Source of the DNA: Brachyhypopomus gauderio
Taxonomy: Eukaryota > Chordata > Actinopteri > Gymnotiformes > Hypopomidae
Assembly (NCBI RefSeq): GCF_052324685.1
Contig: NC_135220.1
Span: 11,420,300 to 11,484,299, forward strand
Direction of reading: 5' to 3'
DNA: 64,000 bases
Made by a program: the position numbers and the translations under genes. Below the pieces are notes generated by a model that saw nothing but the letters and a program-made list of their open reading frames with translations, was not told where the DNA came from and searched no databases. Of this stretch, positions 53,702 to 58,084 are shown piece after piece; position 1 is the stretch's first letter; the number at the start of each line of letters is the position of its first letter.

Positions 53702-53867
53702 CAGGGGCGGACTGGCATACATAACTACCGGGGATTTCCCCGGTGGGCCGATGGGTTAACTCAGCCCGTGGAGGAGACACTGCCGCGCACTGCGGCCCGT
53801 AGTCACGCTGCTGTTTAACGGTGTTATTACCTCCCCCGCTCCAGTCACACTAACCTGCTCAGCGCGG

Positions 53868-53923
53868 CCGCGGACTGGGCCTGTAAACACATGAACGAGT
53901 TGGACCGGGCCGCGGACTGGGCC
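53868..53923 (+). repeat. Subterminal repeats of the transposon end motif
   Basis: CCGCGGACTGGGCC occurs at 53868-53881 and 53910-53923. Both contain GCGGACTGG, the core of the terminal inverted repeat. hAT transposases typically bind short subterminal repeats (known of Ac and relatives). Confidence 0.6.
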
Positions 53924-54446
53924 AGCTGATGCGGGCTGACGGTATGCAGCAGAGATCAGAAAAAAAACCAGCTTGTCCCAGAAAATCCGGGCCGGACTAC
54001 GAAAACATACAGCAGCTGTTTCACTTATTAATACAAGTAGTCAGGAACTGGAAAAGCCTCGTCCATACTAATGCCACATTCATTATATCTCCCTGTCCAC
54101 ATTGCCATAAAGATGGAGCAGTCTAAGGGTCAGACTCCCAGTCTCGCGTCCACCACTTCTGGACATACATCTGGAAATAAATTCTTTAAACTTATTAGTT
54201 TGATTTTACCCTTGTTTTTAAATTCAACTGTGGTCAATAGTGCTGGCCTGATTTTCTGTTTTGATGAAGAAAAAGAAGCTGCTTCTTTTAATCCCAAATC
54301 CACACCTGTCAAGTCTCCCGTTTTGGCCGGGAAACTACCGTATTTTACCCCTCAGAAAATCTCGCGGAGTTCCGTCTCGCGACACCCCTAATAACCGCGG
54401 TATGTTTTTTTTTTTTACTTTGATGTTGTGAATTGAATATTCTAAA

Positions 54447-54532
54447 TGACGTCACAAAACATGACGTTGTTAATTAGTAGAATTCCGTTTCTATAGTAAC
54501 GACATAACACAACATAACCGAACGTATATAAG
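54447..54532 (+). promoter_or_regulatory. CRE and TATA promoter of the transposon-borne gene
   Basis: A perfect cAMP-response element TGACGTCA lies at 54447-54454 and a half-site TGACG at 54462-54466. TATATAAG lies at 54525-54532. A start of transcription about 30 bases later (near 54557) would give a leader of about 80 nt before the ATG at 54638. Confidence 0.5.
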
Positions 54533-54637
54533 GCCATACTCAAGGCGGTCGACACCAGTGTGATATTTGTTGAGAGAGGAGAAATCACAGCTGAACATAT
54601 AAATACAGTAGTGGAGAGTGGACAGTGGAATAAGAAG

Positions 54638-55552
54638 ATGGAGTGCATTATAAAGAATGAGATGGCAAGTGTAAATCTGAGAAGTGGACAGGAACAAAGA
54701 AAGGGTGACATGCTAAGTGTAGAGGACGTCATGTGCAACACGATTAAGGATTTATTGTCCCCGATAAAGAAAGCCACAGATCAAATCGAGAGGGAGAAAT
54801 TAAAAAACAGACAGTTGGTCAGTGAATATGAGGAGATAGAAAGGAAGTGGACAAGAGAGGGCGAAGAAATGATGAGCAGACAGAAGGATCTGGAGGAGGA
54901 GTGCAAAACCCTGCAGGACGAAAAGAGGGAGATTGAAGAGGACTGGAAGCAAATGGAGGAGTGTTTAAAGGAGATGAGGACGGCTGACTACACACTGGGG
55001 GAAGATCTGGATAAGATCAGGCTCAGGCAGGAGATCCGCTTCCATCAAATAACTGAAAATGCGAGACTGAGGGAAATAGAAAACCTCAGGCAAAAGGTGG
55101 ACAAACATGTGGAAAAGATGAAGGAGAATGAAATGATGAAGAGGGAGCTCGAAGAAAGGGAGATGGTGAGGCAGCGAGAGTTGGAGACGGAGAGAAAGAG
55201 ACTGACGGAATGTCAGAAAGAGGTGGAGAAGATGAAGTTGGAAACAGAGCAAGAAAGGAACAGGATGAGGGAGGAAAGGAAGAGAGAGCTAGAAGAGTTG
55301 ACGAGAGAGATGGCTTCATACCGCCTGAAGATGGAGCAAATGGTGGTTACAGCGCCTGCAAAAAAAGAGAAGTGCACGCTGGTACGATGGTGGAAGAGTT
55401 TAAAGAACAACGTGCTCTTCAGGAGCCAGGAGAGCAGCCTCCAACAGAACCAGGAGAAAAGCTCCGCCAATACAACAGAAATCTCATCCTGCCCCGGCGA
55501 AGGGAAGGAGACGAGAAAGAAGAGTATATGGCGAAAATGGTTCAAGCGCTGA
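54638..55552 (+). CDS. Intronless coiled-coil protein encoded inside the hAT element
   Basis: A 304-aa open frame begins at an ATG in strong context (AAGATGG), protein start MECIIKNEMASV, and ends at TGA. The frame is open 26 codons further upstream, but without an ATG. Residues about 45-250 are highly charged, rich in Glu, Lys, Arg, Met and Leu, and predicted by eye to form one long coiled coil. The tail has two aromatic-basic patches, LVRWWKSLKNN and the last residues IWRKWFKR, which could contact membrane or nucleic acid (inference). There is no transposase motif. A TATA box lies 106 bases upstream of the ATG. It resembles the trichohyalin-like or golgin-like coiled-coil predictions common in fish genomes, but I cannot assign a family. 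An intact frame of this length in a decayed element suggests recent insertion or selection. Confidence 0.6.
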   Translation: MECIIKNEMASVNLRSGQEQRKGDMLSVEDVMCNTIKDLLSPIKKATDQIEREKLKNRQLVSEYEEIERKWTREGEEMMSRQKDLEEECKTLQDEKREIEEDWKQMEECLKEMRTADYTLGEDLDKIRLRQEIRFHQITENARLREIENLRQKVDKHVEKMKENEMMKRELEEREMVRQRELETERKRLTECQKEVEKMKLETEQERNRMREERKRELEELTREMASYRLKMEQMVVTAPAKKEKCTLVRWWKSLKNNVLFRSQESSLQQNQEKSSANTTEISSCPGEGKETRKKSIWRKWFKR

Positions 55553-56646
55553 AATGAAAGTGTGAGGAACCGCACATGATCTCCGTGTAGATGCGGTTCA
55601 CCTGCCGCTCATCGCGGCTCCCCATCGCAACTATTTAATCTTCCCCCTCACTCTTCTTATGAAGTATTGGTGCCATGCCACGTACCGAGCGGTCTCTCCG
55701 TCTTACTGCCTTCCCCGTGTACCGACCTCTGCTCTCCTCCTAGACCTCGTCCCCTGCCTAGTCCCTCTGAACCAGAACCATATAGAGAACATATAGAAAA
55801 CACAAGGTAAGTTGAAACTAGGGTGGCAGTTTTGATCAATGAATCTTACAAGACTAAAGAGGAATACAACATACTAAAATGTTATAGTACAGTATGATAT
55901 ATGTAATTATATGTAACCGTACTAGACTTGTATTCTATTATTTGGAGCTGTTTGGGGGTTGCTGGATTTTGAAGCTTGGCTACTGGAGTTGTTCACCTTT
56001 CTGGATTGGGCCTTGCTTCCAAGATGACCATCTTTTAACTGTTTCTTCTTTCTGTCATTCCGTATTGTGCAGGGGGATGCACAAAAATGGTGGGAACAGC
56101 ATCTGCTCTCAGCCTAGTCTTGCCCTGTTTGGTTCTGATGAACTGGTCTGCCTCAAAATGTGCCTGCAGAGTGATGTGAGTTTACTCCTCACACATGACA
56201 ACTCAGTTTTGTCTACCCATATACATATCCCATAGTGGGTGAATACACAGTATTAGAGAACACTTACTGGATACGTATACACTCATTACACGTATAAAAA
56301 ACAACCAAGGATGTGCAACAAATTCAAATTCATATCACATCAATACTCATAATAATCATTTTCTCCTGTCTTTTTCTCCTCTCTCTCTCTTTAGGCCAAA
56401 GAACCACAGGGGATTCAATGGAGCCTGCAACTAGATGGCACCCTCACCTGTTTGATAGCTCTGTGATCATTGTTTCAATAAAGACGGCTATTATCCGCAC
56501 TTGGATCCTTGTCTGCCTGATTAGTATGTTACAGAAAGGGTAGTAAACAAACCTGTGTCCTAGAGAGATTATAAATAATATTATGGCATTTCACAATAAT
56601 ATTAATAATAATAAACACATTTTATGAACTTATTCATTTTGTTTGG

Positions 56647-56997
56647 ATGTGCCATTGCCACAGAGGACGCGCTGATGCCAACTCCTATCTGAGGTTCACC
56701 ATCTGCACTGAAGGGACTGTGACTGCTTGGCCTGGAATTAGAACTATAACTATAGAACTATATTTAGATTATAAATACAGACTTCTGCTAGCGGGCAGAG
56801 GATGGAGGATGGATTCACTTTTGAGTCTTGGTCCTCCCGAGGTTTCTTCCTAATCCCCACCATCATAGGGAGTTTTTCCTCGCTACTGTCGTCTCTTTCT
56901 CTCATTAGGGATCTGGACCCATACAATTGTAAAGCTGCTTTGTGATGTGTTGTAAAAAGCGCTATATAAATAAATTTGACTTGACTTGACCATGTTA
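56647..56997 (+). mobile_element. Dispersed teleost repeat tail ending in (TTGAC)n
   Basis: The stretch contains wording I know from a very common repeat of otophysan fish genomes: GAGGTTTCTTCCTAATCC, AGGGAGTTTTTCCTCGC, GTAAAGCTGCTTTGTGATG, AAAAAGCGCTATATAAATAA and a terminal TTGACTTGACTTGA. A 3' end of short tandem repeats is typical of non-LTR retroposons and SINEs. The class is inference from memory. It may begin upstream of 56647. Confidence 0.55.
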
Positions 56998-57029
56998 CAA
57001 TCATTATGATATAATATAATTTTTTTTAA

Positions 57030-57453
57030 AGCATTCAAGTGCCTCCCCAAAAGGAATTATGTCGCTAGCCTCACGAGAGTGTCAACCTGCAGTAGCCTGA
57101 GTGTCAGTTCTTGCGAGATTAGCGCTGACAGCGGGAACAACAAACCCGAAAAACTAATCAGAGATGGATGAATGTAACGAGAGAGAAGGCGTTTCTATCA
57201 AAAAAGTGAAGATGTCGTGTAAAATATAAGGGGTCCTGGACCTTGATTGGGTCCTTGTTTTAATACACTCTTAAATAGCAATACTATTATTAATAGTAAT
57301 ACTATTAAATAGTAATAATAATTTAAATAATATAATTATAATATAGAAGAAATACATTTCTTTTGCATTTTTATTGTAGGTAGATCATTTTGACTAGGTT
57401 ATCTTATAAGTAGCTCGCAAGCTGAAAAGGTGTGGGCACCCCTGGTCTAAACA
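57030..57453 (-). mobile_element. End fragment of a second hAT family
   Basis: Read on the minus strand from 57453, the sequence starts CAGGGGTGCCCACACC, followed by TTTTCAGCTTGCGAGCTAC. This is a known style of hAT terminus in fish. No matching opposite end or 8-bp duplication is visible nearby (the flank would be GTCTAAAC), so it may be a truncated or rearranged piece within the larger element. Confidence 0.45.
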
Positions 57454-57738
57454 AACTACCAAACGTAAAGGTGGCACTGAAAAGCTGAGAGAGAAAAAAG
57501 AAAAGCTGTAGAGGTTTTACTCACTGAGTGAACAATGTAGGTTTCAGTAGCTTTCCAGTTGTTTTTCCCCTGTATTTTGTCAGGGTCAAGTTGTTAAGTT
57601 TGTTAGTTATTTTGATATATTTTGATTTGTAATCATATTATTGCTGGAAGTAATATTGTCCATATGACAATAAAAGCTGACATATACACTACGTGCCATG
57701 TATAGATTATACAGTATATATACACACACACATACAGT

Positions 57739-58029
57739 ATATATATATATATATATATATATATATATATATATATATATATATATATATATATATATAT
57801 ATATATATATATATATATATATATAGATCTAATTAGCAATCCAGGTAAAATTAGTGGAATCAACGCAGTCCAGGAAGCCTGAGCAAAATCCTGGTGAGGA
57901 CTTTTAATCGCGGCACCTGGAATTGACAGCACTAATATATATATATATATATATATATATATATATATATATATATATATATATATATATATATATATAT
58001 ATATATATATATATATATATATATATATA
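57739..58029. repeat. Two (AT)n tracts flanking about 110 bp
   Basis: AT tracts at about 57739-57824 and 57936-58029, both inside the hAT element near its right end. Confidence 0.93.
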
Positions 58030-58084
58030 GTGGGCCAGTCTGTCAGGAACTCCCGGGCCACTTTTTCTCCCCAGTCCGCCCCTG

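Follow-up and report, generated by a model that had tools for sequence, protein, structure and literature searches.

A hAT-type insertion with a coiled-coil gene in Brachyhypopomus gauderio, and the gene family to which it belongs

Can a cut-and-paste transposon of a vertebrate carry a complete gene, and can it thereby spread a gene family? This question is raised by an insertion in the fish Brachyhypopomus gauderio, within a stretch of 64,000 nucleotides from contig NC_135220.1 (positions 11,420,300 to 11,484,299), which we will call the window. A first-pass annotation of the window had described inverted ends of 14 bp and an 8-bp duplication of the target site, both exact, and between the ends an intronless open reading frame (ORF) of 304 amino acids, and it had proposed that a hAT transposon had captured a gene. 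All of these sequence features are correct to the base (Table 1). Our explanation, to which we give a probability of about 0.8, is that the window holds a single inserted copy of a nonautonomous hAT-type cut-and-paste element whose cargo is a complete protein-coding gene, and that later duplication and exchange between copies built a gene family.

The insertion and its gene-less relatives

The insertion begins with CAGGGGCGGACTGG and ends with its exact reverse complement. Past these 14 bp, the left and right ends are unlike. Within the window, 3880 pairs of sites no more than 10 kb apart have both a 14-bp inverted end and an 8-bp direct repeat without mismatch, and the single pair among them whose end is other than pure A/T is the insertion at 53702-58084. 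If 10-bp ends are allowed, there is one further non-A/T pair (18320-18451), which lies within a 20-bp tandem repeat. A query for the empty site in the same genome matched just the two flanks of the insertion itself. A scan with Rfam found no matches at or above the gathering score; it gave four weak ones (E = 0.006-0.25), located within the AT tracts or next to them.

We searched the genome (796.5 Mb in 840 contigs, numbered here from C1; loci have the prefix L) for the end motif. There are 776 exact occurrences (381 forward and 395 reverse), versus 0 and 1 for the reversed motif as a control. Of 26 convergent pairs of ends considered on contigs C1 and C2, 18 span 800-1250 bp. Three short elements (L002, L006, and L008; 842-899 bp) have exact target-site duplications and align with positions 1-314 and with most of positions 3917-4383 of the window element. 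The gene is absent from all three, and each has 287-315 bp of its own between the arms. Because these relatives have the same arms and a different interior, the window element looks like a short element whose middle was swapped for about 3.6 kb. A fourth short element (L001) has only the ends in common with the window element. Five gene-less relatives (L001, L002, L006, L008, and L060) have an exact 8-bp duplication; the octamers match at 7 of 8 positions in L066 and are unmatched in L017 and L059.

Comparison with the gene-less relatives thus supports the proposed capture of the gene by the element. The first-pass annotation had no view of the short relatives, to which 54017-57617 is foreign, nor of the conserved promoter and the gene family that we describe below.

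Mobile copies, the gene family, and selection

If the gene moves with the element, then other copies should have the same ends, their own target-site duplications, and unrelated surroundings. Indeed, six gene-bearing copies have both ends. Their duplications differ from one another and are exact in five copies (in one of which the duplicated sequence is of low complexity) and match at 7 of 8 positions in the sixth (Table 1). When 14 flanking pieces (142-700 bp) were compared all against all, no two of them were similar at E = 1e-4. This bears out the suggested mobility of the gene.

The junctions between the arms and the cargo also recur: 13 loci span the left one, and 13 span the right one. 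(We compared 57 mutually overlapping loci, most of which fall short of a junction; the set excluded L001-L008, L065, and L067.) Among the loci that cross a junction are copies with coding frames distant from that of the window (on C5, C6, C8, C13, C34, and C139). In a C13 copy, the left end was not seen. The simplest reading of these shared junctions is one founding event followed by spread, and together with the copies in Table 1 they suggest that a mobile element has spread a working gene family.

To describe that family, we used a protein search of the genome, in which 130 of 149 candidates were scored. The result was 102 matched stretches across 20 contigs; one is weak, and some genes yield two stretches. 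No internal stop is present in 98 of the stretches, although some of the genes may still be broken, since a matched stretch ends at a frameshift. If up to 3 mismatches are allowed, the genome has 80 occurrences of a 30-mer from within the core promoter (62 are exact; the control gave 0), so we estimate that the family has about 80 genes. Many of the copies sit in tandem arrays. There are also arrays of shorter relatives (201 codons) at C8:23.86-23.90 Mb and C139:331-362 kb. The C8 and C139 copies look like segmental duplicates of one insertion because the flank beside the right end is common to both, as read by eye.

The window's coding frame is a mosaic. Over the first ~260 aligned codons, its identity is 93-98% with the C16 copy and 67-88% with the C5 type. 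Over the last ~50 codons the order is reversed, at 98-100% with the C5 type and 77-83% with the C16 copy, so exchange between copies is likely. Adjoining the C16 gene copy is a microsatellite-like tract of more than 2.4 kb that is open in several frames (L061, 7362-9800). A palindromic miniature element beginning CACTGAAAAAAAATAAAGC is present in L041, L021, L061, and L037 (partially in L021 and L037), at slightly varying points just 3' of the coding frame.

The reading frame is open upstream to a total of 344 codons, with no earlier in-frame ATG. The protein has no match in Pfam above the cut-off, just coiled-coil-type models far below it (APG6_N and EzrA), and it has no relative in the PDB by sequence (E up to 1) or by profile (E up to 0.01). 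Structure prediction gives a single long helix (residues 28-238), with a predicted template modeling score (pTM) of 0.30. Short helices that are rich in tryptophan and lysine are predicted near the C terminus with low confidence (247-259 and 293-303), and several C-terminal tryptophan and lysine residues are invariant in 17 aligned members. The ORF is not a decayed part of a transposase, which had been raised as a concern: it has no transposase match and belongs to a separate gene family.

Did selection keep the frame open? Among seven mobile copies, the ratio of nonsynonymous to synonymous substitution rates (dN/dS) was 0.15-0.51 in the 20 of 21 pairs that were computable (two of the seven frames are identical), and the ratio of the summed rates was 0.28. 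Three paths between copies include 41 changes, of which 19 were synonymous, more than the 19-26% that four mutation models predict (P = 6e-5 to 0.003). This ratio and the synonymous excess support the first-pass annotation's view that the frame has been kept open. Since selection opposed amino-acid change among the mobile copies, the carried gene is probably functional. Between subfamilies, dN/dS was 0.28-1.26 among the pairs listed, and about 1.2 for the window copy versus the C5 type, which suggests fast change of the coiled-coil body.

The promoter is nearly fixed: across 55 pairs of 11 subfamily representatives, the mean difference in the 51-bp core was 1.8%, versus 15.1% at four-fold coding sites. 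We take the motifs in the window's promoter to be a cyclic AMP response element (CRE), an X-box-like sequence, and a TATA box, and we presume that they are tied to germ-cell expression. Some copies carry TTACGTCA where the window copy has the CRE palindrome. Downstream of the frame, a block of 197 bp matches over its full length at 96-99.5% in 9 of 13 loci, and in four of those nine the coding sequence matches at just 69-72%. At the remaining loci, the block matches over 193 bp at 99.5%, over 115 bp at 97%, and over 182 columns at 89.6%, and one locus has no match.

Table 1. Features of the window insertion, and gene-bearing copies with both ends
Feature	Position or length	Strand	Basis or duplication
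Left target-site duplication CCCACATA	53694-53701	.	exact match to right octamer
Left 14-bp terminal inverted repeat CAGGGGCGGACTGG	53702-53715	+	sequence; genome-wide motif count
Left arm, common to short gene-less elements (element positions 1 to ~315)	53702-54016	+	alignment with three 842-899-bp relatives
Cargo of ~3.6 kb, where short element has ~290-315 bp of interior	54017-57617	+	alignment with relatives; junction recurrence
CRE/ATF-type palindrome TGACGTCA, upstream of core promoter	54447-54454	+	sequence; motif name presumed
Conserved 51-bp core promoter block, X-box-like GTTTCTATAGTAAC and TATA box TATATAA (54525-54531)	54485-54535	+	motif names presumed
Intronless ORF, 304 amino acids	54638-55552	+	ORF call, homologues, dN/dS, model
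Conserved 3' untranslated block	55592-55788	+	identity across 13 loci
Putative splice-donor-like GTAAGT after ORF	55807-55812	+	sequence only
Putative polyadenylation-signal-like AATAAA	56478-56483	+	sequence only
Right arm, common to short gene-less elements; two long AT-dinucleotide tracts	57618-58084	+	alignment, repeats
Right 14-bp terminal inverted repeat, exact reverse complement of CAGGGGCGGACTGG	58071-58084	-	sequence
Right target-site duplication CCCACATA	58085-58092	.	sequence
Window copy	53702-58084		CCCACATA, exact
C1 copy	C1:32607851-32612324, 4474 bp		TCACAAGC/TCACACGC, 7 of 8
C4 copy	4206 bp		CACACACA, exact, low-complexity
C42 copy	4496 bp		GTGGGGGC, exact
C3 copy	C3:5381073-5385740, 4668 bp		CTTTGTTC, exact
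C34 copy	5310 bp		CTTCTGAG, exact; left end one mismatch, right end two extra bases

Objections, rival explanations, and the source of the gene

We propose that the interior of an ancestral short element, of ~290-315 bp as in the three short elements of 842-899 bp that we read, was replaced by ~3.6 kb. The incoming sequence would have been a gene, probably captured from the host, with its own TATA promoter, an intronless coding frame, and a 3' part. A transposase acting in trans would then move the whole package and leave the 8-bp duplications that flank the copies. Since the promoter moves along with the coding frame, every new insertion could bring an expressible copy of the gene with it. 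Tandem duplication and exchange between copies would have yielded the family of roughly 80 genes (as estimated from the promoter copies), which, as far as sequence can tell, combines a nearly fixed promoter with a fast-changing coiled-coil body.

Several observations weigh against this account. Some loci have irregular structures: in L017 and L018, the left junction is inverted and lies downstream of the gene, and in L063 the left junction is also downstream; L017 has two left-type ends and no matching duplication; the C14 copy shows the left end only; and a second C1 copy has no ends in the sequence examined. A tandem array on C5 is free of terminal inverted repeats, so the gene also amplifies without the element. 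As to selection, the three paths were judged to be disjoint from distances, with no tree built. Furthermore, the coding divergence among the mobile copies (0-3.1%) is not below that of the noncoding cargo (0-3.0%), and dS is higher than the noncoding rate. Taken with the mosaic frame, these values suggest that copies have exchanged sequence, and such exchange could bias dN/dS. Finally, the expected transposase is missing from the places where we looked. The genome does contain hAT dimerisation domains (PF05699; 150 scored of 2223 candidates), and none of the 32 listed places on C1 and C2 lies less than 8.9 kb from an exact end motif. On these two contigs, 8 pairs of ends are more than 1250 bp apart; one is gene-bearing, and in the three of the other seven that we read (L059, L060, and L066), no transposase was found. 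L060 has a gypsy-like frame between the same ends, and L066 has no frame above 91 codons. L059 is a short element split by a 5.4-kb insert, with a THAP-domain frame of 270 codons (THAP, E = 6e-14) and serine-rich repeats, and its flanking octamers do not match.

Might the ends then belong to another superfamily that makes 8-bp duplications, such as P? A hAT transposase with these ends was not found, and one same-ended locus has the THAP frame. However, that frame sits in the insert that splits the short element. Also, hAT elements typically have CAG...CTG ends and 8-bp duplications. The window element has short terminal inverted repeats that begin with CAG and are exact over 14 bp, and the 8-bp duplication is exact in the window and in four other gene-bearing copies (7 of 8 in one more). 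In a comparison of the ends alone, CAGGGGCGGACTGG differs from the ends that are given for the P-like element Pdre2 of zebrafish, CATACCTGTCAAC (PMC10983969). We consider it improbable that the ends are from another superfamily, and we infer hAT membership from the end motif and the length of the duplication. The hAT label of the first-pass annotation likewise depends on these two features.

Could this be an ordinary host gene family that spread by tandem and segmental duplication, with a hAT-type element that just surrounds one copy and was carried along? Many copies do sit in tandem arrays, a unit of the C5 array (L064) is without an element end or arm, and the C8 and C139 copies resemble segmental duplicates with a common flank at the right end. 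But for the window group, this explanation is contradicted by the six both-ended copies with their own duplications and unrelated flanks, and the same internal junctions are found in divergent copies on several contigs. We consider it very unlikely. It is also unlikely that the cargo is dead and that its frame is open merely because the insertions are young. The mobile copies do differ by just 0-3%, and without selection, the chance that 41 substitutions would include no stop is about 0.10. Against this, the mobile copies have an excess of synonymous changes, open frames persist in subfamilies at dS of 0.2-0.3, and the difference in the promoter is about 8 times below that at four-fold sites.

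A bolder version of our account is that this is a vertebrate gene family that lives in a cut-and-paste element. Nearly all of the ~80 members would derive from one hAT-borne founder with a germline-type promoter (CRE, X-box-like, and TATA) and a fast-changing coiled-coil body that is kept for its own spread. This is conceivable but doubtful. If it were true, the coiled-coil body would help the spread, perhaps by countering the silencing of the element or by biasing transmission, and the element would be a selfish gene carrier and not a passive vehicle.

Where did the carried gene come from? An element-free parent gene was not found in this genome. The array on C5 (C5:35.76-35.85 Mb; L051-L054, L056-L058, and L064) is a candidate, as it consists of tandem copies of the gene without terminal inverted repeats. 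Its unit L064 is ~6.3 kb, has no element arm, and includes a Tc1-like frame (recognised by eye). Over 266 codons, L051 differs from the hAT-borne C5 copy (L055) by 1 synonymous and 6 nonsynonymous changes. Compared to the window, the array matches only parts of the cargo, and outside the C-terminal region its coding body shows 67-88% identity. The sequence upstream of the gene in the array looks derived, because the window group, unlike the array, matches most other subfamilies there. We also considered a retrocopy origin and rejected it: the ~190 bp of extra sequence after the frame in some copies is a palindromic miniature element (CACTGAAAAA...) and not an intron. Near element position 2088 there is a difference of ~660 bp in which the window group is like L016-L018, and it could not be identified as an intron. 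As to a viral source, one scan of viral contigs gave one weak match of 30% (residues 192-260, in the coiled coil only).

Elsewhere in the window, we noticed a FOXO gene (3191-4944; FOXO-TAD, E = 7e-19; a piece of the forkhead domain, E = 6e-8), an LHFPL-type exon (28660-29112; E = 2e-29), and a CKAP2-like frame (61370-61750, within 59805-61750; E = 6e-4, below the cut-off). The frame that adjoins the CKAP2-like one has a 21-bp minisatellite at 60906-61034. The order of these genes resembles that of the human FOXO1-LHFPL6-CKAP2 region. Four large and highly regular minisatellites are closely spaced at 30644-31171, 34139-34664, 35000-35659, and 35795-36566, with units of 21, 78, 40, and 35 bp, respectively, and 96-98% matches.

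Comparison with known systems

It is well established that DNA transposons of plants carry genes: Pack-MULE and Pack-TYPE elements are nonautonomous elements that move gene sequence, mostly fragments. The window element likewise carries gene sequence; unlike them, it carries a whole frame with a promoter, apparently under selection, and in an animal. A full-text search for the end motif gave no paper, and topic searches, judged by their result lists apart from the two papers cited here, gave no report of such a family in fish.

Among animals, Tan and colleagues (2021) reported 370 Pack-TIRs (TIR is short for terminal inverted repeat) in 100 genomes, including 208 in hAT elements and 8 in zebrafish, and just four of the Pack-TIRs are multicopy, or 1.4% by the survey's own count (PMC8277862). 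The survey defines a Pack-TIR as having 100-5000 bp of internal non-element sequence between the two ends of one element; its parent should be unambiguous, have an identity of 90% or more across 80-120% of the length, and be unlinked to the element (PMC8277862). The window element has ~3.6 kb between the arms of one element type, and the same chimeric structure is found at several loci with distinct duplications, as in multicopy Pack-TIRs. The C5 array matches only part of the cargo, and for want of a parent of the defined kind, we do not file the window element as a strict Pack-TIR, although it works like one. The limits of that survey's search, as described (a unique top hit and a parent without the element), might have caused it to miss such a family.

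The described elements that can be set beside this one are Pack-hAT-N8_XT of the western clawed frog, which has three copies and carries 291 bp of a 5' untranslated region, and Ssk-FB4 of Drosophila melanogaster (PMC8277862). As in the survey's account of Pack-hAT-N8_XT (PMC8277862), the window element has foreign sequence in a nonautonomous hAT-type element and several copies with distinct target duplications; unlike it, the window element carries a block of 3.6 kb with a promoter and a full frame, and it has six both-ended copies, while its family has ~80 copies of the promoter. Ssk-FB4 is of the Mutator-like element (MULE) type, with long ends and 9-10-bp duplications, and it has four copies, which are polymorphic, a known parent gene, and a protein detected by mass spectrometry (PMC8277862). 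As the survey describes it, Ssk-FB4 resembles the window element in that nearly a whole gene and its upstream sequence lie in a nonautonomous element, with recurrent transposition, further tandem duplication, and signs of selection (PMC8277862). The window element differs from it in having hAT-type ends and a vertebrate host and in being known here from sequence alone. We read this multicopy, gene-carrying, nonautonomous hAT-type element as a strong new variant of Pack-TIR-like gene carriage. It would show cut-and-paste transposition as the engine of a new gene family in a vertebrate, and with it one can test, within one genome, whether a transposon-carried gene is retained to serve the host, the element, or neither.

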